In this document: piece by piece, positions 34,153 to 49,855 of the stretch
How positions within the stretch are numbered: position 1 is the stretch's first letter
Layout of the letters: every line of letters begins with the position of its first letter
Assembly: GCF_034314045.1 (NCBI RefSeq)
Contig: NZ_JAVIWL010000001.1
Span: forward strand, 4,464,001-4,528,000
From: Glaciimonas sp. CA11.2
GTDB taxonomy: Bacteria > Pseudomonadota > Gammaproteobacteria > Burkholderiales > Burkholderiaceae_D
DNA length: 64,000 nt
Direction of reading: 5' to 3'
Position numbers and translations under genes: made by a program
Notes under the pieces: model-generated
Told to the model about the DNA's origin: nothing
What the model saw: only the letters and a program-made list of their open reading frames with translations
The model's database searches: none

Positions 34153-34168
34153 AGCAAACTCTGTGCCA
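34153..34168 (-). promoter_or_regulatory. Sigma-54 promoter P1 (-24/-12)
   Basis: Minus strand TGGCACAGAGTTTGCT: GG-N10-GC with full TGGCAC and TTGCT elements, close to the consensus TGGCACG-N4-TTGCW. It lies upstream of the CoA-transferase gene. Confidence 0.75.
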
Positions 34169-34588
34169 TACCATGGTTAGTGTCTCACGCTAAGGGAGAC
34201 TGGCGATAGCCGGTCCTGAGTGGGCCGGACCTGATCGCAAAATAAGCGTTTGGGTGTCTTTACCGAAGACAAACGAAGGACTATTGCCCTCGTTGCAGAC
34301 ATAAGAAATTGCGTTGTGGAGACACGTTTTATATCTTTGGGTTGTGTCACTGGCATGTATCACCTTCGGGCGATCCCAACGTTTCTGACAGATGGGCTGG
34401 TCGACCGTGCCTACGGAATCCACGACGGCGAAGTTCGCGCAGCGGGACCGTTGATCAAATTGGGGAACTGGCTTTGGCTAAGGAATACTTATAGGCGGTA
34501 TTACGAAGCATTATTATAAAGCGGCGTAAAGCAGATTCCGGGTCGATCACAACCGTGTGATAGAGGGTGATCGCTACCCGGGATAAGT
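34169..34588. other. Gap upstream of promoter P1
   Basis: No gene is supported. An imperfect inverted repeat (GAGACAC, 18-base spacer, GTGTCAC; 34319-34350) lies about 150 bases upstream of P1, at a distance suitable for activator binding, but the arms differ at one position and it is weak. Confidence 0.3.
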
Positions 34589-36313
34589 TTAGCCTTCCGA
34601 CTCCGGGACATGCATTTGCGCCAGGCGCTTGTAAAGATAGGAGCGTGAGATGCCGAGTTCAGTAGCAACCTGTTTTTTGTTACCACGGCAGCGCGCCAAT
34701 GCCTGACGAATGAGTTGTTCTTCCACTTGTTCGACAGCGCGGCTGACGCGCATGGGCTCTGCCGGGTCTGCCTTTGGTTCGCGCGCAATTTTATCCTCGA
34801 ACGTATCTGAAGGTGCTGCCTGCGACACTTCGGAAGCATCTGAATCAATGTGACCGAAATCGGCAGGCTCGATCACATCGGACTCGGTAAATATTGCCGC
34901 ACGCTCTACCATATGTATCAGCTGGCGTACGTTACCAGGCCAGCGCTGACCTTTCAAAAATACCAGTGCCTGATCTGAGAGTGTCTTCGGACGTTGTCCG
35001 TGCCGCTCGGTAAACTGGTTAAGCGCCATTTCAGCCAGCAAAGGAATGTCTTCAAGTCTCTCCCGTAATGACGGAAGCCGAATCGTGACAGCACCGATAC
35101 GGTAAAAAAGATCCAACCGGAAAGTACCATCGGCGATCATCGCCTCGAAGTTACGATTGCTGGCCGTGACCAGCCGAAAGTTCGAGTGATGCGACTCGTT
35201 CCCACCGACCCGTTGAAACGAACCGTCCTGCAAAACGCGTAGCAACTTTACCTGAACTTCGGAAGGCATATCGCCCACCTCGTCGAAAAATAAGGTGCCG
35301 TTATCAGCTTGCTCGATCTTACCTTTTCTGCCTTTGCGCTCTGCACCCGTAAACGAGCCCGCCTCATAGCCGAACAGTTCGCTCTCGACCAGTGTGGCTG
35401 GCAGCGCGGCTGCGTTGACCATCACCATCGTGGCATCGCGTCGGGAGCTCAGCTTGTGGATGGCATGCGCAGCGAGTTCCTTGCCGGTGCCGCTTTCCCC
35501 GGTAAAAAGGATAGCGACATCCATCGGTGCGACTTTCACGATCTGCTGCTTGAGACGCTGCATAGCCGGGCTTTCGCCGACCATCTGATCCAGCCCGTAG
35601 CTGCGGTTCTTCAGATCGCTTAACTCACGACGGTAAAAGGCTGCTTCAGACTTGACCTTTGCCAGTTCACCCGATAATGCCCGCAGTTGTTCCGGGCCCT
35701 TAAACATGATCTGTCCGATAGCCCCGACCATTTCTCCCCGGCTGTTGCGTATCGGATTGCGCGTCACCACACGGGCCACGCCACGCATTTCCTGAATTAA
35801 CCCGATTTCGGCCTTGCCTGTTGCGGCGACGTGATGCAGCCTTGTATTCTCAATAACATCGGTCACGTGACGCCCTGCAGCGCTGCCCGCCTTAAGACCA
35901 AAAAACCGCTCATGCACCGGGTTCATGTAGCGCAGCACACCTTCCCGGTCGACCACGGTAAGGGCTTCAAACGGATTCGTAAGCAGATGGGCGAGGATGT
36001 CGCCTCCAAAGTCGATGGAGGCGACCAGTTCAAACAATGCGTCACGACCCTCGCGCTGCATCGCTACCAGCACCGTCGCGTCAGGAGTCGGAAGAACGAT
36101 CACAACGACATCAGTATCATCCGGGCCCTCTATAGAAAACAGGTGTTGCTGATTGCGACGTGCATCATGCCATCCACGGACGATACGAGCGGCCATTTCG
36201 CCCTCGGCGGCGATACCGCCTGCAGCCAGTTCTTTTCCATCAGCACCCAAAATTAGTACGCCGCGCAGGGAACTCGGCGTCACGCCTGCGGGGCTTATGT
36301 CTGGTATTTTCAT
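34589..36313 (-). CDS. Sigma-54-dependent transcriptional activator with PAS domain
   Basis: A 574-residue enhancer-binding protein. An N-terminal region of about 105 residues and a PAS domain (about 108-205; LTVVDREGVLRYMNPVHERFFG) precede the AAA+ domain: Walker A GESGTGKE (272-279), the sigma-54 contact loop GSFTGA (319-324; the usual GAFTGA has Ala at the second place), Walker B LFFDEVGD and the sensor region FRLDLFYRIG. A Fis-type helix-turn-helix (NKKQVATELGISRSYLYKRL) ends the protein. It is the only sigma-54 activator in the window and lies among genes with -24/-12 promoters. The PAS domain may sense the pathway substrate or its CoA ester. Confidence 0.92.
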   Translation of the reverse strand: MKIPDISPAGVTPSSLRGVLILGADGKELAAGGIAAEGEMAARIVRGWHDARRNQQHLFSIEGPDDTDVVVIVLPTPDATVLVAMQREGRDALFELVASIDFGGDILAHLLTNPFEALTVVDREGVLRYMNPVHERFFGLKAGSAAGRHVTDVIENTRLHHVAATGKAEIGLIQEMRGVARVVTRNPIRNSRGEMVGAIGQIMFKGPEQLRALSGELAKVKSEAAFYRRELSDLKNRSYGLDQMVGESPAMQRLKQQIVKVAPMDVAILFTGESGTGKELAAHAIHKLSSRRDATMVMVNAAALPATLVESELFGYEAGSFTGAERKGRKGKIEQADNGTLFFDEVGDMPSEVQVKLLRVLQDGSFQRVGGNESHHSNFRLVTASNRNFEAMIADGTFRLDLFYRIGAVTIRLPSLRERLEDIPLLAEMALNQFTERHGQRPKTLSDQALVFLKGQRWPGNVRQLIHMVERAAIFTESDVIEPADFGHIDSDASEVSQAAPSDTFEDKIAREPKADPAEPMRVSRAVEQVEEQLIRQALARCRGNKKQVATELGISRSYLYKRLAQMHVPESEG

Positions 36314-36640
36314 TTCAAATATTATACTTCTATTTTAGTTGCCCTTGCCGCCGGGAGCGACCGCCTTTCACTGAACAAATGTAATTACTACGAACACTAA
36401 GCAGATTAACGTGACCGGTGACGAAATCGTCGCGTTTGTGGTGGGTGACAAAAATCTGCCTAGAATTTTGACGGCGCAATGGTCATTTCCTCATTCGATG
36501 TATCCCGCACTGCATCATCCAATGTGCGACATCACAAAGTGATTGTTTACGTCGCGTTCACTCCCTTATAAACACTGAAATAATTCGATGCGCTATTCAA
36601 CAGTCAGGCAAGTTGATTTGGATAAATTTTGGCTAAATTG

Positions 36641-36682
36641 CGTCAGGTAAATCCGTAGAAGCTGTTTTACATTTACCTGACG
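36641..36682. promoter_or_regulatory. Perfect 12-bp inverted repeat upstream of the activator gene
   Basis: CGTCAGGTAAAT and ATTTACCTGACG, separated by 18 bases, about 330-370 bases before the activator start. There is no T-run on either side, so it is probably a protein-binding site (candidate upstream activator sequence) and not a terminator. Confidence 0.5.
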
Positions 36683-36829: not shown

Positions 36830-37957
36830 TTAAAGCTCTCCGATTAACGCTGTATTACTCTGTCCCAGCTCAGGTGCACCCGCCGCCTGGGTTTGTCGAA
36901 ATACATTGCATATCGGTACTGGCAGCGCTGGGATTGAATCGCCCTTGCCGCTATCCAGCGTCTGCGTGAATAGCCCGCGTCCGATAAAATGTGGATCGGC
37001 GACCGCATCCTCCAGATCGGCTACTAATCCCACACATACTTCCCTGCCCTTAAATTTCTCTAACCAGTAATCTGCTGAATGTTGGGCGATGGCAGCGGCC
37101 ACCCTTGCTATAGCTTGCTGATCATCGGCGGCAAGTTCCTCCTGTGGTATCCCGATGATTTCAGTAAAATTAGTCCAAAATTTATCCTCAAGCGGTGCCG
37201 CCGCAAGATAACGATTGTCGCTGGTCCGGTAGACCTGATAACGCGCCGAGCCACCTGTCACCAGTTCCTTGCCGCGCTTCGGCCATTCACCAGCGCTGAA
37301 GCCGTTACCAAGTCCCCAGTACATAAAGGTAAATAAATTGTCGGCCATGGCAATATCGAGATGACATCCGAGACCGCTCTGCGCGCGCGCTTGCAACGCC
37401 AGCAAAATATTCATCACTGCCGGATAAGCTCCACCGGCAATGTCAGCCACTAGCGCTGCCGGCAATACCGGCGCGCCGTCCGCACCGGTCGACAGCGCCA
37501 GCATGCCGCTATCGGCAACGTAGTTCAGATCATGTGCGGCGATCTGTGCTTTAGGACCGGACTGGCCGTAACCAGTGATAGAGCAATAGATAATCTTCGG
37601 ATTGATGCGCGAAACAGTTTCATAATCGAGGCCCAGACGTTGCATGACACCTGGACGAAACTGCTCAACGATGATGTCGGCGCTGCGCACCAGTTCTTCC
37701 AGACGTGCGCGTTCCGTCACTGATTTGAGGTCAATCGCAATCGATTTCTTCGCTCGGTTAAGGAGAGCAAAATTGACGCTATCATTCCCAAATTTGGGTG
37801 TGTAACTGCGCATCTCATCGCCGTTGCCAGGGCGCTCGATCTTGATGACTTCAGCACCCGCCTCAGCTAGCAGCAGCGTCGCCATAGGACCAGGTAACAG
37901 AGTGCTGAAATCGAGGACGGTGATACCATGCAGGGGCTGGTGGTGAGGCTGTCCCAT
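36830..37957 (-). CDS. CaiB/BaiF protein, alpha-methylacyl-CoA racemase-like
   Basis: A 375-residue family III CoA-transferase-fold protein. The segments VLDFSTLLPGPMATLLLAEAGA and IERPGNGDEMR are typical; AAHDLNYVADSGML carries the His and the Asp-Leu-Asn-Tyr motif of alpha-methylacyl-CoA racemases, and LVADIAGGAYPA carries the second acid residue. That pattern fits a racemase (AMACR) better than a CoA-transferase, but both remain possible. It is the last gene of the operon that begins at 44728, 2 bases after the preceding gene. Confidence 0.8.
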   Translation of the reverse strand: MGQPHHQPLHGITVLDFSTLLPGPMATLLLAEAGAEVIKIERPGNGDEMRSYTPKFGNDSVNFALLNRAKKSIAIDLKSVTERARLEELVRSADIIVEQFRPGVMQRLGLDYETVSRINPKIIYCSITGYGQSGPKAQIAAHDLNYVADSGMLALSTGADGAPVLPAALVADIAGGAYPAVMNILLALQARAQSGLGCHLDIAMADNLFTFMYWGLGNGFSAGEWPKRGKELVTGGSARYQVYRTSDNRYLAAAPLEDKFWTNFTEIIGIPQEELAADDQQAIARVAAAIAQHSADYWLEKFKGREVCVGLVADLEDAVADPHFIGRGLFTQTLDSGKGDSIPALPVPICNVFRQTQAAGAPELGQSNTALIGEL

Positions 37958-37959: not shown

Positions 37960-38628
37960 TCAGTCTCCCTGACTATGCGCCATTGCCATCTGTGCTGCAC
38001 GCGCCGGTGCATAGGGTTCCTGGCGCAATGCCTGGTAAAGCTGCTCGCTGACCCGGCAATGATCGGCCAGACCAGTACGCTTGAGTAGCGCAATCGGACC
38101 CTCCGGATAACCGAGACCCAACCTTAGCGTCATATCCATGTCCTCGGCGCTTGCCAATTGCTCATCAAGTCGACGCAGCGCCGCGTTGTAATAAGGCCGC
38201 ACAAGACGGTTGACGATTCTGCCGGGAAAGTCCCCACACACTGCGACGACCAATCCGGCTGCTTCGAGTGCCCCCTTTGCGGCCGCCAGTGCGACCGGCG
38301 ATGTTTGTGGCAGACGCACCAGTTCAATCAGATTACTAGGTTCAGCATCGCCCAGACGAAAACGCGCAATACCAACCACGTTAGTCCGAACGGCAGGAGC
38401 ATTTGTATCGACATGCACACCGAGACATTCGATATCGAGTTCAATAGCGATAAATACAGCGTCAGTTACTGTTGGCGAAGACCGGTAGGCGGCCCCGGCC
38501 TGAGCGCCCAGATAGACTGTCGCGATAGCATCGCTATCAGCTTGCGCAATGAATGAATGGTCGACCGGAAACGAGCGGCTGATGCCGGATGAAATAATAC
38601 AATAAGGTGTCTGCATAGGTGTTTCCAT
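37960..38628 (-). CDS. Stand-alone 3-hydroxyacyl-CoA dehydrogenase C-terminal-type protein
   Basis: A 222-residue protein that lacks a GxGxxG nucleotide motif. Its C-terminal half (GDFPGRIVNRLVRPYYNAAL, then LRLGLGYPEGPIALL) is the 3HCDH C-terminal domain; its N-terminal half resembles the degenerate second Rossmann-like part found in long PaaH-type proteins, such as the one at 45523-47085. With the gene just upstream (38630-39505) it forms a split version of that fused architecture. The ATG at 38628 follows GGAG and lies just past the upstream stop. It may be a structural or non-redox partner; catalytic function is doubtful. Confidence 0.65.
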   Translation of the reverse strand: METPMQTPYCIISSGISRSFPVDHSFIAQADSDAIATVYLGAQAGAAYRSSPTVTDAVFIAIELDIECLGVHVDTNAPAVRTNVVGIARFRLGDAEPSNLIELVRLPQTSPVALAAAKGALEAAGLVVAVCGDFPGRIVNRLVRPYYNAALRRLDEQLASAEDMDMTLRLGLGYPEGPIALLKRTGLADHCRVSEQLYQALRQEPYAPARAAQMAMAHSQGD

Positions 38629-38629
38629 C

Positions 38630-39505
38630 TCAAGCTCCGAACATTTTAGTATTGGTATAGTTGAGGAAGCCCTTACCGGATTTTTTGCCAAGTCGGCCAG
38701 CAGCGATCATGCGTTTGACCAGCGGCGGACAGGCTGCCCGCGGTTCGTTGGTCAACCCGTACATCGCCTCACATAACAGCCGTTGCGTATCAAGACCCAC
38801 TAGATCAAGCAACTCCATTGGTCCCATCGGATAGCCCAGCGCGGTCTTGATAGCCAGATCAATATCGGCCGCCTCGGCCACGCCCTGCTCAACTAAACGG
38901 ATAGCATCGTTGTGATATGGAATTAAAAAATAATTCAGGATGAAGCCGGGCGTGTCCTGAGTCCGTACAGGCTTTTGCCCCATGGCCTTACTAAACTCCC
39001 AGGCTGCAGCAAATGTCTCTTCGCTGGTGTTCATGCCAGCTGACATCTCCACCAGCTTCATCAATTGTGCAGGAAGGCAAAAATGCATCCCTACAAAGCG
39101 ATCATCACGGCCACAACCGCCTGCGATCTCGGTAATCGAGATGGTCGACGTATTCGAAGCAAAGATGGTGTGCGGCGGGCAAACCGCATGCAATCGCTGA
39201 AACAATTGATGCTTGACAGCCAGGTCCTCAAATACTGCTTCGATAATAATATCGCAATCCGCCATACCTGCTGCATCAGTGCTGCCAGACCAGTTCTGCA
39301 TGATCTGTTCCAGTTGAACCGGTTCCAGCTTCTTGCGTTGCACTGATTTTTCTAGAAAGGCGAGCGTCTGCTGACGCGACTGCTCCAATGCTTCCTGTCT
39401 GGTATCGAGCACCTTGACACGAAAGCCTGCGCGAGCGGCTACAATCGCGATGCCGGTTCCCATGGTGCCGCTGCCGACTACGCCGACGGTTTTAATTACT
39501 GTCAT
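38630..39505 (-). CDS. 3-hydroxyacyl-CoA dehydrogenase (HbdA/PaaH type)
   Basis: A 291-residue NAD-dependent dehydrogenase for L-3-hydroxyacyl-CoA. The NAD motif GVVGSGTMGTGIA is at the N-terminus, EAVFEDLAVK and ASNTSTISITEIA follow, the catalytic His is in GMHFCLPAQLMKLVE (the usual HFFNP is changed to HFCLP), and the C-terminal domain has DTPGFILNYFLIPYHNDAIR and GYPMGPMELLDLVGLD. It lies within the tight operon, 8 bases after the acyl-CoA dehydrogenase gene. Confidence 0.85.
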   Translation of the reverse strand: MTVIKTVGVVGSGTMGTGIAIVAARAGFRVKVLDTRQEALEQSRQQTLAFLEKSVQRKKLEPVQLEQIMQNWSGSTDAAGMADCDIIIEAVFEDLAVKHQLFQRLHAVCPPHTIFASNTSTISITEIAGGCGRDDRFVGMHFCLPAQLMKLVEMSAGMNTSEETFAAAWEFSKAMGQKPVRTQDTPGFILNYFLIPYHNDAIRLVEQGVAEAADIDLAIKTALGYPMGPMELLDLVGLDTQRLLCEAMYGLTNEPRAACPPLVKRMIAAGRLGKKSGKGFLNYTNTKMFGA

Positions 39506-39513: not shown

Positions 39514-40680
39514 CTATTTCAAAAGAAAGCTACGGCCAATGAGTTGACGGTGTACCTGATTGGTACCTTCCCAAATCTGGGTGATTTTAGCGTCACGCAT
39601 GAGCCGCTCAACGCGATAATCCTTGCAATAACCATAGCCGCCCAATAGCTGTACGGCCTCGGTGGCGATGCGCATCGCTGCATCGCTGGCGCGCATCTTT
39701 AATATCGATGCCTCGGTACCAAAATCTTTTTCTCCGGAATCGACCATTGCTGCTACACGCCACAACCAGGATTCACACATCACCAGCTCTGCAGCGAGGT
39801 CGGCAAGTAAAAATTGAATCCCCTGAAACTCGATAATTTTTTTGCCGGACTGCTTGCGCTCGTTGATGTAAGCCACCGCATCCTCGAAAGCCGCGCGCGC
39901 GATACCCAGCGCATGCGCCGCAACACTAGGGCGAGAACGATTTAGCGAGCCAAATAGTATTTTCAGACCATCGCCAGGATTTTGAAGAAGATTGGCGCGC
40001 GGCACACGGCAGTTATCAAAAGCCAGCGAAGCAGTACTGGAGCCACGTGTGCCCATCTTATTCTCTGTACCGGTCACGCTTAACCCTGGCGTGCCCTTTT
40101 CAAGGATCAACACTGAGATCGCTGCCTTTGGATCGTCAATTTCGCTCCATTTTCCGAACAGCAGATACTGGTCAGCAACGTCACCATTAGTAATGAAAAT
40201 TTTGCTACCGTTGATGACGATGTTGTCGCCATCCGGACGGAACGAGGTTTTCATACCAGTCGCGTCCGAGCCCGCCGATGATTCGGTGATGGCAAGAGCG
40301 GCCAGCGCTCCTTCTGCAATCTTTGGCAGAAACTGCGATTTCTGTTCGTGATTGCCGAACTCGATTAATGGCTTGATCGCATGAAAATTAGTGGCCCAGA
40401 TGATGCCAGTGGAAGCACACGCCTTGGAAATTTCCCGTACGCATGCCAGATAGCAGGTGAACGACAGCGGTGCGCCACCATATTCTTCCGGAACGAACAT
40501 CGCGTTGAGACCAAGCTGGTTGATGGCGTGGACATTATCCCAAGGAAACTCTCCACTTTCATCGACTTCCGCTGCTCTTGAAGCAATCTCCTTACGTGCC
40601 AGTGCTTGCACACTATCGAGAATCATTTTTTCATCTTCGCTCAGAGGTAAGCGATTATCTAATCTTTCCAGCACATTCAT
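39514..40680 (-). CDS. Acyl-CoA dehydrogenase (AliB-like position)
   Basis: A 388-residue FAD-dependent acyl-CoA dehydrogenase that introduces a double bond next to the thioester. The FAD-binding AITESSAGSDATGMKTSF and signature segments are present, and the catalytic base Glu is in QIWEGTNQVHRQLIGR. The context (SDR, hydratase and BadI-like gene upstream, dehydrogenase downstream) places it where AliB acts in cyclohexanecarboxylate degradation, but the family is broad. It starts 14 bases after the SDR stop. Confidence 0.87.
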   Translation of the reverse strand: MNVLERLDNRLPLSEDEKMILDSVQALARKEIASRAAEVDESGEFPWDNVHAINQLGLNAMFVPEEYGGAPLSFTCYLACVREISKACASTGIIWATNFHAIKPLIEFGNHEQKSQFLPKIAEGALAALAITESSAGSDATGMKTSFRPDGDNIVINGSKIFITNGDVADQYLLFGKWSEIDDPKAAISVLILEKGTPGLSVTGTENKMGTRGSSTASLAFDNCRVPRANLLQNPGDGLKILFGSLNRSRPSVAAHALGIARAAFEDAVAYINERKQSGKKIIEFQGIQFLLADLAAELVMCESWLWRVAAMVDSGEKDFGTEASILKMRASDAAMRIATEAVQLLGGYGYCKDYRVERLMRDAKITQIWEGTNQVHRQLIGRSFLLK

Positions 40681-40694: not shown

Positions 40695-41438
40695 TTAGTG
40701 TGCGACGCCTTGCGCGCCGTCAATATAAATTGTCTCACCGGACATAAATCCGCCAGGCATGGCAAACAAGAGGGCGACCAGTGCGCCTACGTCATCAGCT
40801 GTGCCGGGCGCCCCGTTTGGAATGCGTTTTTCAAGAAATGTGCGCAGCGGACCTTCCGACATAGATGCGCGGTTAAGGTCGGTAACGATATAGCCGGGGG
40901 CGACGTTTAGTACCCGCACACCAACGGAGGCCCATTCGACTGCCAGGCAGCGCGTGATCGCGCCGACTGCGGCCTTGGAGGCGCAATAAGCGAGGTTGCG
41001 CTTAACGCCCATTTTGTCAAAAAATGAACCTATATTGACAATCAGTCCGCCCTGCTCGCGCAAATACGGAAACACACTCTGACTGCCTATCACTACCGAG
41101 TTGGCATTGGTTTGCATTACTTTGTCAAATTCCTCCAATGGAAGCGACGCTGACTTGCCTTCCATATGGATGCCGGCATTATTCACGAGCCCGGCTATCG
41201 GGACGCTGCACCGAGACTGAATGTCTGCGATGGCCGCTCGCACCTGGCTAGCATTGGTCACATCGCAAGCGGCACTCAACCAACGTTGGCGTGCTTGCTC
41301 CGAAGCATCGGGCCGATGCGGAAGGTCGCCTGAGCGTGAGAGGCAACCAACCATGAAGCCAGCCTCCGCCAGACTTTCGGCAATTGCCGCACCGATTCCA
41401 CGACTGGCACCGGTTACGATAATACAAGACTGTTTCAT
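40695..41438 (-). CDS. SDR-family dehydrogenase (BadH/FabG-like)
   Basis: A 247-residue classical short-chain dehydrogenase. The cofactor motif TGASRGIGAAIA and GLVNNAGIH are at the usual places, and the catalytic Ser-Tyr-Lys set is in NIGSFFD and YCASK. A C-terminal GGFMSGETIYIDGAQG is typical. In the operon it lies between the hydratase and acyl-CoA dehydrogenase genes, suiting a 2-hydroxycyclohexanecarboxyl-CoA dehydrogenase (BadH) role; this is inference from context. Confidence 0.85.
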   Translation of the reverse strand: MKQSCIIVTGASRGIGAAIAESLAEAGFMVGCLSRSGDLPHRPDASEQARQRWLSAACDVTNASQVRAAIADIQSRCSVPIAGLVNNAGIHMEGKSASLPLEEFDKVMQTNANSVVIGSQSVFPYLREQGGLIVNIGSFFDKMGVKRNLAYCASKAAVGAITRCLAVEWASVGVRVLNVAPGYIVTDLNRASMSEGPLRTFLEKRIPNGAPGTADDVGALVALLFAMPGGFMSGETIYIDGAQGVAH

Positions 41439-41441: not shown

Positions 41442-42212
41442 TTATTCATCCTTGAAATGAGGAGTCCGCTTTTCAACGAAGGCCTGCATGCCTTCACGTG
41501 CGTCGGCGGTTTGAAAGGCCAGCGTTGATAAGTCCGATTCGATGCGCAAACCGTCGATCAGCGGCAACGCTAATGCGCGCTGAATAGCCTCCCGGGCAAA
41601 CAACAGCGCACAGCGGCTAAAGCCGATAAATTGCTGCGCGTAAGTACAACCGATCGTAATCGGGTCAGCCGCTTCAACCACCAGATTGACTAAGCCAATG
41701 CGCTCTGCTTCGACCGCGTCTATGGTCTTGCCAGACAGGATGATTTCAAGCGCTTTGGCTTCGCCGACTAAACGTGGAAGGCGCTGAGTGCCGCCATAAC
41801 CCGGGATCAGCCCGAGCTTAATTTCCGGCAATCCCATCTTTGCCTTTGGCGTTGCAACCCGAAAAGTACACGCCATTGCCAACTCCAATCCACCACCAAA
41901 CGCATAGCCATGAATAACGGCAATCGATGGAATCGGCAGCCGATCCAGTTTGGCCATCACGCTTTGGCCTAGCTCTGCACCTTGCTTTTGCGCCAGCAGG
42001 CCGCGACCTTGCAATTCTTTAATATCGGCGCCAGCGCAAAAGGCTTTTTCACCGCTACCGACAATCACTAATGCACGCGCATCGGATGCCGCGACCTGAT
42101 CGATCGCCGCGCTAATCTGGCGCAGCACGTCGAAACTCAGTGCGTTCAAGACTTGCGGCCGATCTATCTGCAAAATCGCACATGATTCCTGATAGGTTAA
42201 TTGAATAGTCAT
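41442..42212 (-). CDS. Enoyl-CoA hydratase (BadK-like position)
   Basis: A 256-residue crotonase. The oxyanion-hole segment GEKAFCAGADIKEL and GYAFGGGLELAMAC (first catalytic Glu position) are seen, with LPEIKLGLIPGYGGTQRLPR carrying the second Glu, so hydratase activity is expected. The ATG overlaps the ligase stop by four bases (ATGA), showing coupling. It would hydrate the cyclic or linear enoyl-CoA made by the dehydrogenase. Confidence 0.87.
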   Translation of the reverse strand: MTIQLTYQESCAILQIDRPQVLNALSFDVLRQISAAIDQVAASDARALVIVGSGEKAFCAGADIKELQGRGLLAQKQGAELGQSVMAKLDRLPIPSIAVIHGYAFGGGLELAMACTFRVATPKAKMGLPEIKLGLIPGYGGTQRLPRLVGEAKALEIILSGKTIDAVEAERIGLVNLVVEAADPITIGCTYAQQFIGFSRCALLFAREAIQRALALPLIDGLRIESDLSTLAFQTADAREGMQAFVEKRTPHFKDE

Positions 42213-43927
42213 GCCGTTTTTCCTTCACTGATTAAAGACTTACCGGCTAAAGGCTGACCGGCGCTTGCAATTTCTCTCACTGCTTGCGGGACCAATTTAC
42301 CGGCACGCGTCAGTTCGATTAGTTCACGCTTGAGTACCTTACCGCTCGTCGTCATCGGAAAGGCGTCCATTTCAATGAAATGCTCAGGCAAGTCATACTT
42401 GGAAAGCCCTGAATCGAGGAGATATTTCAAGACCTCATCGGCACGCAGTGCGACACCATCACGCGGGATAACGGCAAGACAAACCTGCTCGCCCAAACGT
42501 TCGTGCGACACCGGATACACCGCTACCTTCAGAACGCCCGGATGCCGCTGCGCCAACTCTTCGATATTGACCGGATAAATATTGTGACCACCGCGTATGA
42601 TCAAATCCTTCTTCCGACCGACTAGACGCAAGCCGCCGTTTTTTTCGAATTGACCGAGGTCACCGCTGAGAAACCATCCACTGGCATTAAATGAATTTTC
42701 GGTCGCTTCCTGATTATTGAAATAACCGAGCATCAGCAAGCCACCGCGTCCGCCGATTTCGCCGATCTGTCCTGGCTCAGCTTCGATATCCGGATTTTCC
42801 TGATTCCACAGACGCACCTCATAGCCACGGCAGGCGCGACCGCAGGAAGCCACCAGCGTATCAATTTCATCCGCAGGCAATGGATATTGATGCGATCCAT
42901 TTTCTGTCATTCCGTAAATATTCTGTGGCACCACCCCAAGCGTCAAAAATTGCTCGGCAATTTTGCGCGGGATCAAGGTCCCCGCCATATAAAAGGTCTT
43001 TACTTTTCCCAGATGCTGTAAGCCTTGCTGCTGCAGCGCAGCCAGCAAATCGATCGCATGCGTCGGGACGCCCATCACGTAAGTGGCACCGGTCTCAATA
43101 ATCCAGTCCAATACCGACTTACCCGTTCCCGCATAATGCAGCACCAATTCGCAACCGGTCACCAGCATCTGCTCGCACGCAACCGTAGCGATATGGTGAC
43201 TGACCGGACTGAGCGACAAGATGACTGTGTCCGGTCCCTGATGCCAGTCACTGGCAAGCGCTCGACCATTAGCAAGCAGCGTATTATCGCTGTGCATTAC
43301 GCCCTTCGGCATGCCGGTAGTACCTGACGTAAATGCCAGATACGCGACCTTGTCGGGATTCAAGTCGGGAGGTGATGAAACCGATGCCGCATTAGGCTTC
43401 GGAAAGGACCGGCTTTTCTCAGGCAGCATCCATTTCACGCCATGAGATGGTAATACCGAGAAGACAGTTTTTATCGACGGCATCGTTAATGCACGCGTAA
43501 AAATTGAATTCTCCGATGCATCAGCACCATAACCTGGCATCGCGAACAATGCCCGACATTGCACCCGCTCAAGCAGGACCGCGATCTCCTCCACGGTATG
43601 ATTCTGATGCAGCGACGGCACGCACACATAACCGTTGCGTGAACAGGCAAGAAAGACGACGACTGACTCGACCCGGCTGGGCAGCCAGACAGCGACCCGG
43701 TCGCCGCCGTGCAAACCGGCCTCAGCCAGACCTTGCGCCACGCTGTCGGCCCAATCCACCAGTTCACGCCAGGTCAGACGGATCTCGGTATCACGCAGCG
43801 CCCATGAACCCGGACGCGTACTTGCATGGTTTTCGGCCAGGCTGTACAGAGTTTCACCCTGCCAGATCCCTGCCATGTAATACTCGCGCGCCTGCTGCGG
43901 ATTATGTAATGTTAAAACATTCTGCAT
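42209..43927 (-). CDS. Acyl-CoA synthetase (AMP-forming), paralogue 2
   Basis: A 572-residue adenylate-forming ligase, paralogous to the one at 30965-32635. The P-loop YLAFTSGTTGMPKGVMHSD, YGMTENGSH, GDLGQFE, GRKKDLIIRGGHNIYP and catalytic Lys in SGKVLKREL are all present. It has a slightly longer C-terminal tail. It follows the BadI-like gene by 21 bases and overlaps the hydratase gene. It would activate the pathway acid; cyclohexanecarboxylate-CoA ligase (AliA) is one candidate role, not proven. Confidence 0.86.
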   Translation of the reverse strand: MQNVLTLHNPQQAREYYMAGIWQGETLYSLAENHASTRPGSWALRDTEIRLTWRELVDWADSVAQGLAEAGLHGGDRVAVWLPSRVESVVVFLACSRNGYVCVPSLHQNHTVEEIAVLLERVQCRALFAMPGYGADASENSIFTRALTMPSIKTVFSVLPSHGVKWMLPEKSRSFPKPNAASVSSPPDLNPDKVAYLAFTSGTTGMPKGVMHSDNTLLANGRALASDWHQGPDTVILSLSPVSHHIATVACEQMLVTGCELVLHYAGTGKSVLDWIIETGATYVMGVPTHAIDLLAALQQQGLQHLGKVKTFYMAGTLIPRKIAEQFLTLGVVPQNIYGMTENGSHQYPLPADEIDTLVASCGRACRGYEVRLWNQENPDIEAEPGQIGEIGGRGGLLMLGYFNNQEATENSFNASGWFLSGDLGQFEKNGGLRLVGRKKDLIIRGGHNIYPVNIEELAQRHPGVLKVAVYPVSHERLGEQVCLAVIPRDGVALRADEVLKYLLDSGLSKYDLPEHFIEMDAFPMTTSGKVLKRELIELTRAGKLVPQAVREIASAGQPLAGKSLISEGKTA

Positions 43928-43948: not shown

Positions 43949-44728
43949 TCATTGGCCAAATTTGGACGCGTCAGGGCTGCGCCGCTCCGCAAATGCAGAC
44001 GCCAGTTCGGCATGTTCTTCGCTGTCCAGATAGCCTGGGAGCAACAAGTCATGCGCCATGCGCGCAAGACCGCTCACGCCACCATGGCGGGCATTGAACG
44101 CAGCCTTGATAGAAGCCAGTGCAAATGCGCCGCGATCGGCGATTTCCAGCGCCATCTTGCGGGTCTCTTTCTTTAGCATCGCATCCGGGACTACTTTATT
44201 GATCAGTCCGATCGACAGCGCTTCCTGCGCTGTCATCTTCGGATTACGAAACCAGATTTCTTTAGCCCGCTTCTTACCGACCAGATCTTCAAGATACCAG
44301 GTGCCATAACCGGCATCAAAACTGCCGACCATCGGCCCCACCTGGCGGAACACGGCGCTTTCCTTAGCAATCGTCATGTCACATACCATCTGCAGCACGT
44401 TACCGCCGCCGACCGCATAGCCGTTGACACAAGCGATCACCGGTTTTTGCAGCCGGTCAATACTTTCATACATATCCAATGTGGGTAACATACCGGCATA
44501 CAGCTGGGTGTCTTCCATACCTTCCTTCTTACCGCCGGTGCAAAAAAATTTATCTCCGGCGCCCGTCAGCACGATGACCCGGGTCCGGGTCTCGCGCCGG
44601 ATGGCGTTGATACAATCACGAATTTCATCGCACATCAGCGGCGTAAACATATTGCCGTCATGGGGGCGGTTCAGGGTCATGGTTCCGACTGGACCGTCTT
44701 CTTCGTAAGTAATTTCCTGAAATTCCAC
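43949..44728 (-). CDS. BadI/MenB-like crotonase, candidate ring-cleaving hydrolase
   Basis: A 259-residue crotonase. It differs from the hydratase at 41442 and shares with BadI and MenB the features FCTGGKKEG, GYAVGGGNVLQMVCDMTIA, VFRQVGPMVGSFDAGYGTWYLED and GKKRAKEIWF. BadI hydrolyses 2-ketocyclohexanecarboxyl-CoA to pimelyl-CoA; MenB closes a ring instead, but no menaquinone genes are nearby. The start is a GTG at 44728 with AAAAGG upstream. It is the first gene of the eight-gene operon (to 36830), about 190 bases after the sigma-54-type promoter P2. Confidence 0.75.
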   Translation of the reverse strand: MEFQEITYEEDGPVGTMTLNRPHDGNMFTPLMCDEIRDCINAIRRETRTRVIVLTGAGDKFFCTGGKKEGMEDTQLYAGMLPTLDMYESIDRLQKPVIACVNGYAVGGGNVLQMVCDMTIAKESAVFRQVGPMVGSFDAGYGTWYLEDLVGKKRAKEIWFRNPKMTAQEALSIGLINKVVPDAMLKKETRKMALEIADRGAFALASIKAAFNARHGGVSGLARMAHDLLLPGYLDSEEHAELASAFAERRSPDASKFGQ

Positions 44729-44933: not shown

Positions 44934-45522
44934 GACTATTCGTCAAACGGTCGTCAGGCTACGCGTAGCAAATCCATTTTTGAAAGCTGCGGACAAATCG
45001 CAAACATGTGTTTTTCCGCTTTACTGTCCGCGCCAAATACTCGTCATACAGTCGACTGTCCGCAAGACGCACAAACCCCGGTCCATGCGGCTTGAGTTCG
45101 AAATGGATCTGGACGATCATGCCGAACCGACCACCCCGCAACTCAGCCAGGTAATGAAATCCACTATTTAGCTTTATTGGCCTAAAAAAAGGGTTTTCTG
45201 CAAGCATGAATGATTAAGTGCATGTCATGCGGACACCGCGATGCCGTCGCGTCCTTTCAATGGACAATCTGAGTGAGAGATATAGCGGCTAATTACACCA
45301 GACTCATGGTACATAGTTTGCAATTTACAACTGCTCAAGCCTGTCTCTGCGTTAATGTCTGTCCCTGCGTTAATAATCAAACTCAAACATTACTTCCAAT
45401 TTAACTTCACACCCATTCCAGCATCTTGCGCCCAAAATGCGACTATTCTGCGGTAAGGACAGCCTGTCTTCGCCGGCGCATGAACTAAAGCACAAAGGAT
45501 GCGATGTCAGGGAGCGAGATGT
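44934..45522. other. Long gap between the fused dehydrogenase and the BadI operon
   Basis: No complete gene is recognised. An 82-codon minus-strand frame (44959-45207) has protein-like composition (LRGGRFGMIVQIHFELKPHG) but no ribosome site and no family I can name; it may be a gene remnant. The rest shows nothing. Confidence 0.3.
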
Positions 45523-47085
45523 TCAGCCCACGCGGTCTGGCGCGGTCAGCGACAGTGATAAGCGCGCACGCCGCACGAGCCATGGTGATGGGCGGTAGCG
45601 CTGATCGCCGAATGTGGCATGCAATCCCTGAAGGATTTCCAGTATGTGTTTTGCACCCAAGCGATCACCCCACTCGAATGGCCCGGCCGGATAGCCCAGA
45701 CCGAGGCGCACAGCGACGTCAATATCAGCAGGCGATGCAACCCCTTGCTGCGCCATCTCGCACGCAAGATTGACGATACAGGCGATAACGCGCGGCGCAA
45801 CATAACCTGGTGAATCTGCAATTACAAACGTCGGAATCAATTGTGCGGCGAAAATGGTACGGGCCGCGTCGACAGTAGCCGCAGCGGTACCCGGGCTAAC
45901 CATCAGTGTGACCCCGGTTTTTCCACTAAAAAGCGGATCGATTGCGACTGCTTTAGACGGATCAAGTTGCAAGTCCGCAACGGTTGTAGAAAGATCGCGG
46001 CCTAATGGTGCCAGCAGAATGACGTCGGCCTCGCTCGCATCGTGCACTCGACTAACAGATTGAAGCAATGCAAGAAGCGAATCCGGTGGCGTGACAGGAC
46101 TGTTCTCCGGCCACCAGACAGCGACTGTGGCCGCCGCCGCGGTTTGTTGCGATACTAATTGCGGTGTGATATTTTTTTCTTGATAACTATAGAAACCCTG
46201 ACCGCTTTTTCGACCTAAGAGACCGGCCAGCAACCGGGTGCGAGCGAGTGTCACCGGACGGTACCGGTCATCGCCATAGTATTGGCTATGGATAGACTCC
46301 ATCACGGGAACCGAAACGTCCAGACCGGTGAGATCCAGCAACTCGAACGGTCCCATTCGAAAACCCGCGCACATGCGCAAGATGGTATCGATAACCGGAT
46401 GTTCGGCGGCGCGCTCAGCTAACAGTTTCAGTCCTTCCGTGACAAACGCGCGCCCCGCATGATTGACTACGAATCCGGGTGAATCAGAGGTAACAATAGC
46501 GCGATGGCCCACGCGCAGCGAAAGCGTTACCAACGCTTGCACCGCTTCAGGCTTAGTACGCGGCGCTTGTATCACCTCTACCAACTTCATGCGGGTCACG
46601 GGATTGAAAAAATGCCAACCGACAACCCTCTGGGGCAACGCGCAAGCTGCCGCGATCGCCGTCACGCTAAGTGAAGACGTATTGGTAGCAAGGATGCACT
46701 CCGGCCTGACCACCGCTTCCAGCTCCCGCATCAAGCTCTGCTTAGCGTCAAGATTCTCTAGGATAGCTTCCACTATCAGCTCGCAATCGCCCAGTTCCTT
46801 CACATCATGGGCGGGCAAAATACGACTAAGTGCGGCAGCCGCATCGGATTCGGAAATTTTACCTTTCGCTACTGCCTGTCCCAGGTCTTCGCGCACAAAC
46901 GCGATGGCACGCGCTACGGCTTCCTCCACACTGTCAAATAACCTGACCTGGCAACCAGCCGATGCGCATACCTGTGCGATGCCACGCCCCATGGCACCGG
47001 CACCGATGATCCCGATATGTTGAATTTCTTTTACGGCTTCTTTTGCCGCTTGATTTGGTGCTTGTTTAACTACTGCATTGACCAC
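45523..47085 (-). CDS. Fused 3-hydroxyacyl-CoA dehydrogenase, PaaH/PaaC type
   Basis: About 520 residues: an N-terminal NAD domain (IGIIGAGAMGRGIAQ), ATNTSSLSVTAIAA, catalytic HFFNPVTRMKLVEV, then a first 3HCDH domain (DSPGFVVNHAGRAF, RMGPFELLDLTGLDV), a degenerate middle domain and a second 3HCDH-like domain (DSPGYVAPRVIACIVN, LGLGYPAGPFEW). This matches the long PaaH-type dehydrogenases of Burkholderiales. GTG at 47085 is preferred (GGAG 6 bases upstream); a TTG at 47103 would add 6 residues. A perfect sigma-54 promoter lies about 170 bases upstream. It is transcribed apart from the operon at 44728. Confidence 0.84.
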   Translation of the reverse strand: MVNAVVKQAPNQAAKEAVKEIQHIGIIGAGAMGRGIAQVCASAGCQVRLFDSVEEAVARAIAFVREDLGQAVAKGKISESDAAAALSRILPAHDVKELGDCELIVEAILENLDAKQSLMRELEAVVRPECILATNTSSLSVTAIAAACALPQRVVGWHFFNPVTRMKLVEVIQAPRTKPEAVQALVTLSLRVGHRAIVTSDSPGFVVNHAGRAFVTEGLKLLAERAAEHPVIDTILRMCAGFRMGPFELLDLTGLDVSVPVMESIHSQYYGDDRYRPVTLARTRLLAGLLGRKSGQGFYSYQEKNITPQLVSQQTAAAATVAVWWPENSPVTPPDSLLALLQSVSRVHDASEADVILLAPLGRDLSTTVADLQLDPSKAVAIDPLFSGKTGVTLMVSPGTAAATVDAARTIFAAQLIPTFVIADSPGYVAPRVIACIVNLACEMAQQGVASPADIDVAVRLGLGYPAGPFEWGDRLGAKHILEILQGLHATFGDQRYRPSPWLVRRARLSLSLTAPDRVG

Positions 47086-47225
47086 ATTAAGCTCCAGTTT
47101 CAAATCTCGTCTTGACTGTAGTGAGGCTTCGGCCGTTCAGCCACTCGTGTCTGTATCGGCACCGAACCTTCCATTGTCGTGCTCACCAGCGACTTATTAC
47201 GGGTATTCATTGCTGGGATCCTTGC

Positions 47226-47271: not shown

Positions 47272-47487
47272 GGGAAAACGGATAACCCCGCTCCCTGTCA
47301 TTGTTTATCCGATGTTCTTTAATCTGACTTCCCCCCGCATGCCACCGCGCAATTTTGTTCATTTGGAAAACACAGCAGTGCGTACTGAAGACACTTCGAT
47401 ATCGGCACGGTGTAAAAAAGCATCTATCAAATTGAGTCGCACTCCTTGCGACTGTTCTCAGAACATATCTATACTGCGTAATAAAAG

Positions 47488-47688
47488 ACAGTGTCGAGCA
47501 AAGCCGACGTGCGCCATTACGACGAAGTGGCGCAGGCCATAAAAGTCACCGTTGACCGCTTTGTCTCGCTTGACATTTTGGTCAACAACGCTGTTCCGAA
47601 AGTTTGTTGTCCATCGGTTCAAATGAGCGCTTCGCGGTATGGCTGGCAGGGCCTGGCGAATAAGGCCCGGGTGCAATGTCCATCGTGA
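47488..47688 (+). pseudogene. Remnant of an SDR (2,4-dienoyl-CoA reductase-like) gene
   Basis: A plus-strand fragment encodes about 65 residues with DVRHYDEVAQAI, VDRFVSLDILVNNA and CCPSVQMS, the middle of a short-chain dehydrogenase of the dienoyl-CoA reductase kind. The cofactor-binding N-terminus (TGxxxGIG) and the Tyr-Lys catalytic part are missing, and stops bound the fragment. It suggests a further step was once encoded here or brought in by recombination. Confidence 0.6.
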
Positions 47689-48188
47689 GGTCGCAGCCAA
47701 GTGAACGAAGGGAATCTTAGCGGGGGAGGAATTGCGTGGAGCGACGCATTGCACCAGGGTTGCGCCAGGCTATTTTTACCAGTCTGCGAGGTGTTTAATT
47801 GTTCACGATGGATAGCTGAGGATGCTAAGCAGCAAACAGGCAGCGCATAGTGGTGGCAGTGACGTTGCATTTTCTTACCACGGAGGCGAACAAAGAATTG
47901 AAGCCGAAGGTCAGGACAGCAGTTTTAAGCTAACTCGATGCAAAGTATGAAACGTGATTTTAGCGAACGCGAAAATGGTCAGAGCTGCTGGAGCTTACTT
48001 GAATTTAACAAACGGTGCAGCTAATGACTTACCCAACCTAACCTGGCCGATCAATCCGACACGCACCTCAGGTCGGTCACGTTTATCCCGGATCAGCAGT
48101 CATGCTGATCCGGGACATTCATTTAGCCAGCCCTCCTTGGGAGGACCTCATCCAAAACCTGGCAATTATTTTTCCAGGGCTACAACAA
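47689..48188. other. Non-coding stretch with a perfect hairpin
   Basis: No gene is recognised after the SDR remnant. A perfect 12-bp stem (CCCGGATCAGCA/TGCTGATCCGGG, loop GTCA, 48087-48114) lies 74 bases past the 3' end of the solute-binding protein gene. Confidence 0.45.
48087..48114. terminator. Perfect 12-bp hairpin, possible terminator or REP-like element
   Basis: The stem is perfect and G+C-rich with a 4-base loop, downstream of the solute-binding protein gene, but no T-run follows on the minus strand. It may be a factor-dependent terminator, a message-stabilising hairpin or a repeated palindromic element. Confidence 0.4.
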
Positions 48189-49406
48189 TTACTTTTTCAC
48201 CAGTGCGCAAGATCCTTCACTCATCGGCTGATATGCCTGATCGCCTGGAATAGTTTTTACTATTTTCATGAGATCCCAGTCAGACTTGGATTCCAACGGT
48301 TTTTTGGCTTCTGCCAGATACATGTCATGCACCATCAGACCATCTTCGCGAATCCGGCCTTTCTTCGCAAAAAAATCATTGATTTCGGTGGCCTTCATTT
48401 TTTTCATCACTACTTCCGCATTGTCAGTACCTGCCGCCTGAACCGCGTTCAAATAATGCATCGTCGCGGAATACATACCGGCTTGAACCATCGTCGGCAT
48501 CTTTTGTTGCAGTGCGTAAAAACGCTTAGACCATGCACGGGTTTCATTATTCATATCCCAGTAGAAACCCGTGGTAAACAACAGTCCTTGCGCGAGAGGC
48601 AGGCCCATGCCTTTCAGGTCTGTGTCAAAAATTAACAGGGTTGCCAGCTTTTGGCCACCCTTAGTCAAGCCAAATTCAACGGCACCACGTACCGCGTTCT
48701 GCGTATCTCTGCCAGCATTAGCAAAACCGATAATCTTGGCTTTCGAAGCCTGAGCTTGTAGCAAGAACGAAGAAAAATCTGAGGCGTTAAGTGGATGCTT
48801 AATCGAGCCTAAGACTCTCCCTCCCATTTCATTAACGACCTGACTCGTATCTTTTTCCATCGATTTTCCGAACGCGTAATCAGCAGTCAGGAAAAACCAG
48901 GTATCGCCGCCTGACTCTACGATAGCGCGGCCCGTACCGGTTGCCAGCGCGTATGTGTCATATACATAGTGGACGCCATATGGGGAACACTCCTGATTGG
49001 TCAGCACAGTTGACGCCGATCCGGCAAATAACATCACTTTCTTTTTAATTGCCCCCAATTTTTGCAATGCAATAGCGGCAGAAGAGTCGGTCGACTCGAT
49101 GATCATATCAACATGATCGCGATCGACCCATTCCGATGCGCGTGCAACGGCGATGTCTACTTTATTCTGGTAGTCCGCTGAAACCATTTCAATCGGTTTG
49201 CCGGATACCTTGCCGCCGAAATCATCAATTGCCATTTTTACCGCGGCGACCCCTCCTGGGCCTCCAATCCCGGAGTAGACACCGGTTTTATCAACAATGA
49301 CACCTATTTTGACGCTGTCACCCGTAAATTGCGCCATGGCACTGCCGGGATTTAAACCAATGATGGACGCACTAAGAACGGCAAGGGCGATTGTGGACAA
49401 ATGCAT
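48189..49406 (-). CDS. ABC transporter substrate-binding protein (branched-chain amino acid type)
   Basis: A 405-residue periplasmic type I solute-binding protein (LivJ-like). The signal peptide (about 1-24, ending GSAMA) follows the ATG at 49406, which has AGGAG upstream; a frame extended to 49538 is not plausible. Domains: VKIGVIVDKTGVYSGIGGPGGVAAVKMAID at the start, then two Rossmann-like lobes. No permease or ATPase genes are in the window, so it is an orphan receptor that must use a distant transporter. A sigma-54-type promoter lies about 125-140 bases upstream. Homologues near aromatic or alicyclic acid genes often bind such acids, which I infer here. Confidence 0.86.
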   Translation of the reverse strand: MHLSTIALAVLSASIIGLNPGSAMAQFTGDSVKIGVIVDKTGVYSGIGGPGGVAAVKMAIDDFGGKVSGKPIEMVSADYQNKVDIAVARASEWVDRDHVDMIIESTDSSAAIALQKLGAIKKKVMLFAGSASTVLTNQECSPYGVHYVYDTYALATGTGRAIVESGGDTWFFLTADYAFGKSMEKDTSQVVNEMGGRVLGSIKHPLNASDFSSFLLQAQASKAKIIGFANAGRDTQNAVRGAVEFGLTKGGQKLATLLIFDTDLKGMGLPLAQGLLFTTGFYWDMNNETRAWSKRFYALQQKMPTMVQAGMYSATMHYLNAVQAAGTDNAEVVMKKMKATEINDFFAKKGRIREDGLMVHDMYLAEAKKPLESKSDWDLMKIVKTIPGDQAYQPMSEGSCALVKK

Positions 49407-49855
49407 GGTGTCTCCTATTATAGATTTAGGTAAATCAGGTTGAGTCATCGAAATGGCGGGTCCAACAGGAAAAGCAATTAATAAAGCTTCCTTGTTGCGA
49501 ACGCGATGCCGTGTACTTCGATAACAACTAGCAAACATCGCGCCATGCTGAATTACGGCAATTTAATGTCAGCAATCTTATTTGCTTAGCTATCGAAGAC
49601 GGCCGCTCTCACATGCGTCAGCCATGGTGTCGTCACGACGCACACAAGATGGCCGTGACAAACACAAAGAACAGATTGGAATGACCATTTCACGCGGTTG
49701 AACCGGGAGACGATTCTGGTACCCTTAATTTCTAAAGTCTTACAAAAGTAGGCGTTTAAATGATGCAAACCGCTAAATTGGGCTATCCGGGTGCACTCCA
49801 GAAAGTATCGACAGGTCAGCTCGCTGCCTAATCAATCCAAGCAAACGACGAGATA
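49407..49855. other. Upstream region of the solute-binding protein gene
   Basis: It contains promoter P4 (49530-49545). No gene is recognised in the remainder. Confidence 0.4.
49530..49545 (-). promoter_or_regulatory. Sigma-54 promoter P4 (-24/-12), one mismatch
   Basis: Minus strand TGGCGCGATGTTTGCT: GG-N10-GC spacing is exact and only the A of TGGCA is changed to G. It lies upstream of the solute-binding protein gene. Confidence 0.65.

Follow-up and report, generated by a model that had tools for sequence, protein, structure and literature searches.

The window, a 64,000-nucleotide stretch of the Glaciimonas sp. CA11.2 genome, very likely holds a sigma-54 regulon that answers to one locally encoded enhancer-binding protein (EBP) and that includes the units behind promoters P1, P2 and P4 and probably that behind P3. 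The sequence-only reading had proposed that four -24/-12 elements and this EBP act together. For P1, P2 and P4 the in silico support for joint action is good: each is preceded at an offset of 82–91 bp by a palindrome that was learned only from other genomes and is invariant in a sister species. The part of the proposal concerning P3 was not borne out in this way: the palindrome there scores 10.2 bits and is absent in the sister-species genome G004, and another site is favoured when the matrix is trained on alphaproteobacterial regions alone. The features of the locus are collected in Table 1.

Table 1. Promoter elements, candidate enhancers (UAS) and genes of the locus.
Feature	Position	Strand	Description
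P1	34153..34168	-	TGGCACAGAGTTTGCT; -24/-12 element 5' of CaiB2; exact consensus match
UAS1	34254..34272	-	TTGTCTTCGGTAAAGACAC; 86 bp upstream of P1; 20.7 bits, top-ranked in window
P2	44918..44933	-	GGGCATGCAATTTGCT; 5' of main operon (ECH1 to CaiB1); 2 mismatches, weak alone
UAS2	45024..45042	-	GAGTATTTGGCGCGGACAG; 91 bp upstream of P2; 12.1 bits, third best
P3	47256..47271	-	TGGCACGTGGTTTGCA; 5' of HCDH2; exact consensus match
UAS3 (possible, uncertain)	47355..47373	-	GTGTTTTCCAAATGAACAA; 84 bp upstream of P3; 10.2 bits, fifth best
P4	49530..49545	-	TGGCGCGATGTTTGCT; 5' of substrate-binding protein gene; 1 mismatch
UAS4	49627..49645	-	GTGTGCGTCGTGACGACAC; 82 bp upstream of P4; 14.6 bits, second best
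AMP-ligase 2	30965..32635	-	
CaiB2	32870..34114	-	Class III CoA-transferase; ATG 34114 chosen, listed start 34126
EBP	34589..36313	-	Sigma-54 activator; putative N-terminal alpha/beta domain, PAS, AAA+ with GSFTGA, Fis HTH
CaiB1	36830..37957	-	Class III CoA-transferase
orf243	37960..38691	-	Second subunit resembling 3-hydroxyacyl-CoA dehydrogenase; has only the C-terminal domain
HCDH1	38630..39505	-	3-Hydroxyacyl-CoA dehydrogenase with NAD-binding domain
ACAD	39514..40680	-	Acyl-CoA dehydrogenase
SDR	40695..41438	-	Probable hydroxyacyl-CoA dehydrogenase
ECH2	41442..42212	-	Enoyl-CoA hydratase
AMP-ligase 1	42209..43927	-	
ECH1	43949..44728	-	MenB/BadI-like crotonase, probable ring-opening C-C hydrolase
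HCDH2	45523..47103	-	Double-domain 3-hydroxyacyl-CoA dehydrogenase
SBP	48189..49406	-	Periplasmic substrate-binding protein; start 49406 chosen

Sigma-54 promoter elements

All four elements were recovered on the minus strand with GG-N10-GC spacing, close 5' of genes, and P3 is the full-consensus element it had been taken for, matching the string consensus used here (TGGCACN5TTGCW) exactly, as P1 does too. On the question of enrichment raised with the sequence-only reading, string matching gave a divided answer. The 5.5-Mb genome contains 26 exact matches, against 3 for the reversed pattern, and two of the 26 lie inside the 15.4-kb span (0.07 expected, P = 0.0024). Allowing one mismatch, 356 matches are found in the genome against 152 with the reversed pattern, and five in the span against 1.0 expected (P = 0.0036), of which three are P1, P3 and P4 and two are on the plus strand. 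Enrichment was seen for exact and one-mismatch strings in the span and not for two-mismatch strings in the window, where 52 matches against 44.6 expected were reached by 14 of 100 shuffles, so that the P2 string is no better than chance. String matching alone was set aside as too weak to prove enrichment. In G004 the -24/-12 bases are identical at 16 of 16 positions in each of the four elements. The Glaciimonas sp. CA11.2 genome has one rpoN gene.

The mechanically listed start of the SBP open reading frame, 49538, falls within P4. An ATG at 49406, after AGGAGA and at a signal-peptide-like stretch, is the more likely start, which would place P4 upstream of the gene. The listed TTG start of orf243 overlaps HCDH1, and its true start is probably downstream. 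A fifth promoter candidate, a plus-strand -24/-12-like site at 45306–45322 with a 9.0-bit palindrome, was not counted because neither element aligns in G004.

Enhancer palindromes

De novo search of operon-upstream regions in other genomes (36 regions outside this species, with the 64-kb window left out of training) yielded the 19-bp palindrome GTGTCTTCG-N-CGAAGACAC, which is the probable enhancer of the EBP. UAS1 is the only zero-mismatch core in the genome, and the summed score of the four UAS matches was reached by none of 200,000 random position quadruples; the fourth-best match in the window (34060) is inside CaiB2. At UAS1, UAS2 and UAS4 all 19 of 19 bases are identical in G004, so that around P1, P2 and P4 the promoter and palindrome are unchanged while the remaining intergenic DNA is 82–85% identical. 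UAS3 is not conserved in G004 while the P3 promoter is, making the membership of P3 less certain, and the matrix trained on alphaproteobacterial regions alone favours position 47376 over 47355 in this region.

Among the 26 exact sigma-54 sites of the genome, P1 and P3 alone have a palindrome scoring more than 5 bits at a distance of up to 300 bp; a search for further regulon members at the other 24 found none above 4.2 bits. Two further strong palindromes in the genome lack a nearby sigma-54 site, and of 11 other palindrome loci examined from the start of a longer list, none combines a sigma-54 site with a strong palindrome.

The activator and the proposed mechanism

The EBP is, as had been claimed, the only enhancer-binding protein in the window, since its AAA+ domain matches no other open frame of at least 60 aa (phmmer). 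The architecture assigned to it, PAS plus AAA+ plus Fis, was likewise upheld: Pfam identifies Sigma54_activat (PF00158, E 6e-64), the AAA lid and the Fis HTH (HTH_8, E 2.5e-13), and the PAS matches, slightly below the Pfam cut-off, are complemented by a clear PAS fold in the predicted model, in a fold comparison that addressed the PAS part and barely covered residues 14–90. The motif G-x-FTGA is present in 24 of 24 aligned orthologues, and reads GSFTGA here. Upstream of the EBP, in 36314–36829, there is no -24/-12 site scoring at least 12. PAS-type sigma-54 activators such as PrdR, TyrR and PrpR control catabolic operons and have the order of sensor, AAA+ and Fis HTH in common with the EBP. 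Its best NCBIfam model is the PrdR equivalog NF041552, which it matches at 355 bits, far under the cut-off of 795, and it appears to represent a separate family linked to this gene cluster.

In the proposed mechanism, the sensor part of the EBP (PAS behind a small N-terminal domain) would detect a pathway compound, and its Fis-type HTH would bind the 19-bp palindromes observed 82–91 bp upstream of the -24 elements. The AAA+ domain would then, as expected from its family, open waiting sigma-54 RNA polymerase at P1, P2, P4 and probably P3. The units switched on would be the CoA-transferase and ligase, the eight-gene main operon, the 3-hydroxyacyl-CoA dehydrogenase and the periplasmic binding protein. 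Several start points are placed under one regulator because they have a special promoter type and a likely landing site in common, in a wiring that recurs in many bacteria.

Comparison across genomes

Orthologues of the cluster are found in both alpha- and betaproteobacteria, frequently as one operon divergent from the EBP. The survey covered the best 80 of 254 loci, which are not independent samples. A -24/-12 site (score at least 13/15, in our own weighting of the consensus rather than a published matrix) lies 5' of the operon at 32 of the 33 loci that have a divergent EBP and at 10 of the 43 that lack one (Fisher P = 2e-11). Lacking one here means that the stretch examined has no minus-strand EBP; short contigs may hide one, and L139 and L142, both in this class, have an EBP on the same strand. 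Four loci were left unclassified (L072, L079, L088 and L116), of which L072, L088 and L116 do have an EBP match. The control regions are longer than the EBP regions (383–440 bp versus 191–343 bp), and chance matches are therefore favoured in the controls.

A palindrome trained on 12 alphaproteobacterial regions scores 110, against a range of 35–44 in 10 shuffles; of 24 held-out regions, it identifies 23 at P ≤ 0.05. Shuffles were mononucleotide for this test and first-order Markov for the promoter survey and the de novo palindrome tests. Palindrome counts at loci with an EBP carry some circularity, whereas the window, alpha-to-beta, SBP and no-EBP tests are free of it. Promoter and palindrome are present together before first genes and at none of the CaiB1 (0/51), SDR (0/57), ACAD (0/66) or HCDH2 (0/22) genes elsewhere, and at only 3 of 23 SBP genes tested. 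The pair is kept in 6 of the 43 loci without a divergent EBP, whose EBP may be elsewhere. Many related genomes have the set as one run divergent from the EBP, with a single promoter and enhancer; in the present locus it is split into units, each with its own. Neither the cluster nor the palindrome, sought as two half sites, is described among the matches listed in the open-access literature. What were promoter-like strings become a testable triad of regulator, enhancer and promoter that recurs across alpha- and betaproteobacteria, and the enhancer sequence offers a handle on the inducer and substrate of a common, unnamed CoA-dependent pathway.

Alternative readings of the regulation

That the -24/-12 strings arose by chance, with transcription of the genes from sigma-70 promoters, is very improbable. 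In its favour, loose matches show no enrichment in the window and strings with one mismatch are common in the genome; against it stand the conservation of the elements in the sister species, their association with the EBP across loci and the shared palindromes at equal offsets. We also consider it improbable, if less so, that the palindrome serves another regulator, such as one repressing these genes. Its distance from the promoter ranges between 79 and 208 bp in 32 other loci, and it persists in some loci without a nearby EBP; against this, it sits in the gap between EBP and operon at enhancer-like distances, is symmetric, and co-occurs with the EBP and the -24/-12 site. Enhancers have usual distances to their promoters, and a dimer of Fis-type HTH is expected to bind a symmetric site.

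A real possibility, though not the reading we favour, is that the regulon comprises P1, P2 and P4 while a different activator of the genome acts at P3, the sigma-54 promoter upstream of HCDH2. Other activators exist, given the 12 matches to the EBP query in the genome. P3 has the best -24/-12 string yet the weakest palindrome, which is missing from G004 and not clearly placed by the alpha-trained matrix, and at no HCDH2 gene elsewhere (0/22) do promoter and palindrome occur together. Nevertheless, a 10.2-bit match at the common offset contrasts with the at most 4.2 bits at the other 24 exact sites, and relatives of HCDH2 are found in the same clusters in other genomes; inclusion of P3 under the local EBP is kept as probable.

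Pathway and substrate

The gene set resembles a ring-opening CoA pathway, the curated thresholds of the bad-ali route being missed. We lean slightly towards an alicyclic carboxylic acid as the substrate that the enzymes best fit, with activation, dehydrogenation, hydration, oxidation and hydrolytic ring opening followed by beta-oxidation. The best models for ECH1 are menB and badI, above every hydratase model and all under cut-off (BadI, 214.5 versus 467.6), and no protein anywhere in the genome exceeds the BadI cut-off. ECH1 also has a GSFDxGYG stretch common to MenB structures. Matches to AliA (261 and 228 bits, cut-off 792) and AliB (145, cut-off 575) are likewise under cut-off, and the BadH and BadK equivalogs are absent among the best 25 of 227 families for SDR and the best 25 of 73 for ECH2. 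Because the AliA, AliB and BadI scores are far below cut-off, membership in the cyclohexane carboxylate (bad-ali) route was rejected, and the route is retained as a functional analogy. Comparison with sequences of solved structures identified no substrate, SDR having no matches at the strict limit used.

It is quite possible, if not what we would expect, that the regulon is correct and the substrate an open-chain (branched or dicarboxylic) acid, with ECH1 acting as a hydratase or thioester hydrolase that opens no ring. CaiB2 is akin to dicarboxylate transferases (best NCBIfam model succinate-glutarate CoA-transferase, 294 bits, cut-off 750), ACAD is similar to short-chain enzymes, and no known ring-pathway model reaches its cut-off. 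Against these observations stand the ranking of MenB and BadI over all hydratase models for ECH1, its GSFDxGYG stretch, and the filling of the remaining bad-ali roles by SDR, hydratase, dehydrogenase and ligase.

According to PMC9795900, the bad-ali genes for cyclohexane carboxylate of Aromatoleum sp. CIB and Rhodopseudomonas palustris are controlled by BadR, a MarR-type repressor with a CAAN4TTG operator. Five proposed roles are in common with the present cluster (CoA ligase, acyl-CoA dehydrogenase, hydratase, SDR-type dehydrogenase and crotonase-type ring hydrolase), and both would be induced catabolic genes; the present cluster differs in its probable control by the EBP and sigma-54, and has two CaiB transferases and a binding protein in addition. 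The mrc monoterpene ring-cleavage cluster of Castellaniella defragrans (PMC4109377) likewise shares a hydratase, a dehydrogenase and a BadI-like hydrolase opening a substituted ring as the CoA ester. However, MrcE is reported there to be 88% identical to BadI, unlike ECH1, which is far under the BadI cut-off, and the gene set differs; that reported identity was the reason for discarding the mrc limonene route.

Composite origin of the locus

The locus looks composite, with the regulator module nearest Comamonadaceae and the main operon nearest Noviherbaspirillum in trees of 20 chosen loci and four genomes made by a quick method without bootstraps; the two parts would thus differ in ancestry. 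Remnants of an older EBP or CaiB2 were sought upstream of P2 and not found. We tentatively suggest a widespread, apparently undescribed proteobacterial system for alicyclic-acid degradation under its own EBP and the GTGTCTTCG-N-CGAAGACAC enhancer instead of BadR, whose activator may here have been swapped for a Comamonadaceae-type one, the promoters of the older operon staying in or joining its regulon. If true, this would be a natural regulator replacement enabled by a shared enhancer sequence, and the composite locus a natural test of a sigma-54 regulon surviving a change of activator.

Promoters and a shared palindrome

The four -24/-12 elements proposed in the sequence-only reading are present with exact GG-N10-GC spacing, and, as it held, the window contains a single sigma-54 activator (enhancer-binding protein, EBP). 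Its grouping of these elements into one regulon under the EBP appears largely correct: judged in silico, membership is firm for P1, P2 and P4, which share a palindrome 82–91 bp upstream that is conserved in the sister species (G004), and provisional for P3. The -24/-12 strings by themselves would be mixed evidence. Enrichment of sigma-54 sites is not apparent among loose consensus matches (52 in the window vs 44.6 expected) and is apparent among exact ones, of which the genome has 26 (reversed pattern, 3) and the 15.4-kb span of the four elements two (P = 0.0024).

Coordinates (window positions) of the features discussed; mismatches are to TGGCACN5TTGCW.
Feature	Position	Strand	Details
P1	34153–34168	-	0 mismatches; CaiB2, then AMP-ligase 2
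P2	44918–44933	-	2 mismatches; ECH1 (crotonase), AMP-ligase 1, ECH2 (hydratase), SDR, ACAD (acyl-CoA dehydrogenase), two 3-hydroxyacyl-CoA dehydrogenase-type genes, CaiB1 (CoA-transferase)
P3	47256–47271	-	0 mismatches; 3-hydroxyacyl-CoA dehydrogenase (HCDH2)
P4	49530–49545	-	1 mismatch; periplasmic binding protein (SBP)
EBP	34589–36313	-	
Palindrome	34254		20.7 bits; 86 bp upstream of P1
Palindrome	49627		14.6 bits; 82 bp upstream of P4
Palindrome	45024		12.1 bits; 91 bp upstream of P2
Palindrome	34060		10.9 bits; fourth best
Palindrome	47355		10.2 bits; fifth best; 84 bp upstream of P3
Palindrome	45218		9.0 bits; sixth
-24/-12-like site	45306–45322	+	faces HCDH2 3' end; palindrome at 45218
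HCDH1 and orf243	37960–39505		separate neighbors
36-codon open frame	47100–47210	-	downstream of P3
13-base palindrome	47453–47465		~180 bp upstream of P3
Short remnant	47485–47649		
Phasin, RHH_8 regulator, PHB depolymerase-type esterase	51003–53812	+	

Expectation maximisation applied to the 260-bp stretches preceding 36 -24/-12 sites (33 loci plus G001, G020 and G034, with the window and G004 left out) yielded a single palindrome of odd length, GTGTCTTCG-N-CGAAGACAC, the probable EBP enhancer. A matrix derived from 12 alphaproteobacterial regions alone scored 110, vs 35–44 on ten shuffled sets, and recovered a site in 23 of the 24 regions held out (P <= 0.05), G001 falling just short at 0.055. 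Six window matches reach at least 8 bits where 4.2 are expected (0.5 at 14 bits); because this number is near chance, the positions weigh more as evidence. None of 200,000 random position quadruples equalled the four promoter-linked matches. Among 27 sigma-54-like window sites scoring at least 12.5, only two besides P1–P4 are preceded by a palindrome above 5 bits: a site within the CaiB2 gene (10.9) and a plus-strand site at 45307 (9.0). Neither the latter site nor its palindrome aligns in G004. Genome-wide, P1 and P3 alone among the 26 exact sites have a palindrome above 5 bits within 300 bp (others at most 4.2), and the zero-mismatch core is unique to P1.

P3 is the weakest predicted member, though its -24/-12 string is the best, because the palindrome is absent in G004, where the promoter is unchanged, and the alpha-trained matrix favors a match at 47376 over that at 47355. 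At P1, P2 and P4, G004 is identical in 19/19 palindrome and 16/16 promoter bases, the remaining intergenic DNA showing 85, 82 and 82% identity, respectively. The perfect palindrome TGTTCTGAGAACA upstream of P3 is perhaps a site of another regulator, and the nearby remnant, which resembles open frames of related loci, is probably a decayed gene.

The cluster in other genomes

A clear EBP orthologue occurs in 4 of 39 relatives searched (97, 56, 52 and 52% identity). G001 (same genus), G020 (same family) and G034 (same order) carry the catabolic genes as a single series divergent from the EBP. In all three a -24/-12 site immediately precedes CaiB2, a class III CoA-transferase gene, and in G001 and G020 a further one precedes the SBP gene. 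A search of representative genomes with ECH1, a crotonase, returned 254 related places, and gene order was tabulated for the 80 that matched best. The cluster is present in Cupriavidus, Caballeronia, Pandoraea, Variovorax, Achromobacter, Azospirillum, Bradyrhizobium and others, and some copies are plasmid-borne; a Celeribacter plasmid copy has no EBP within the stretch seen.

In 33 of the 80 the EBP is divergent from the first catabolic gene, which is CaiB2 at 25 loci, AMP-ligase at 6 and ECH1 at 2; 43 lack this arrangement and 4 are unclassified. A -24/-12 site scoring at least 13 of 15 precedes the operon in 32/33 divergent-EBP loci (the remaining one reaches 12.5) vs 10/43 others (Fisher P = 2e-11), the control regions being longer and two of the 43 carrying a same-strand EBP. 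Promoter plus palindrome occurs before the first genes of units, namely CaiB2 (30/60), AMP-ligase (6/73), ECH1 (4/80) and SBP (3/23), and before none of the internal CaiB1 (0/51), SDR (0/57) or ACAD (0/66) genes, nor before HCDH2 elsewhere (0/22). In other loci the upstream ends of palindrome and promoter are 79–208 bases apart. The mechanism, sigma-54 with an EBP and an enhancer, is ordinary; the family is widespread, and the literature searched yielded no account of it. The own-genome loci L149 and L156 carry strong palindromes (19.8 and 20.8 bits) with no -24/-12 site within 260 bp.

Origin of the locus

The locus looks composite, the segments 30965–36313 and 36830–49406 differing in nearest relative. 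By score, the closest match is L132 (Comamonadaceae) for EBP, CaiB2 and AMP-ligase 2 (73, 73 and 72% identity), and L064 (Noviherbaspirillum suwonense) for ECH1, AMP-ligase 1, ECH2, SDR, ACAD, HCDH1, CaiB1 and SBP (73–87%); the EBP of L064 is just 53% identical to that of the window. For orf243, L064 ranks second (66%); HCDH2 fits neither. In quick trees the EBP groups with L132 (SH-aLRT 93) and L073 (96) and ACAD with L064 (99); CaiB2 is nearest L132 by path, and HCDH1 nearest L064, with strong support only for its pairing with G004. P2 (GGGCA-N4-ATTTGCT) resembles the L064 promoter (GGGCA-N4-ATTTGCA). We suggest, without proof, that it was once the native promoter of a CaiB2 gene since lost; remnants of lost genes were sought upstream of P2 and none found.

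Predicted pathway and gene boundaries

ECH1 is best described from its sequence as MenB/BadI-like: it scores 249.7 and 225.3 bits with two menB models and 214.5 with badI, all under cut-off, carries the GSFDxGYG stretch of MenB, and is the best badI match in the genome. Together with the ligase, dehydrogenase, hydratase and SDR, ECH1 might take on the enzyme roles known from the bad-ali route. Given this likeness and enzyme set, and with the AliA, AliB and BadI thresholds reached by none of the cluster's proteins, we propose an alicyclic acid as the somewhat probable substrate. According to the available text of PMC9795900, the bad-ali regulator is BadR, a MarR-type repressor, whereas the cluster here has an EBP and sigma-54.

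No -24/-12 site scoring at least 12 lies in the gap before the EBP gene. The listed SBP start, 49538, falls within P4; the ATG at 49406, preceded by AGGAGA and coinciding with a signal-peptide-like stretch, is likelier. HCDH1 and orf243 may jointly form one enzyme, since the Celeribacter plasmid has a single longer 3-hydroxyacyl-CoA dehydrogenase gene there. The 36-codon frame, whose stop overlaps the listed TTG start of HCDH2, is possibly a leader peptide. The phasin, RHH_8 regulator and esterase genes adjoin the cluster on the opposite strand.
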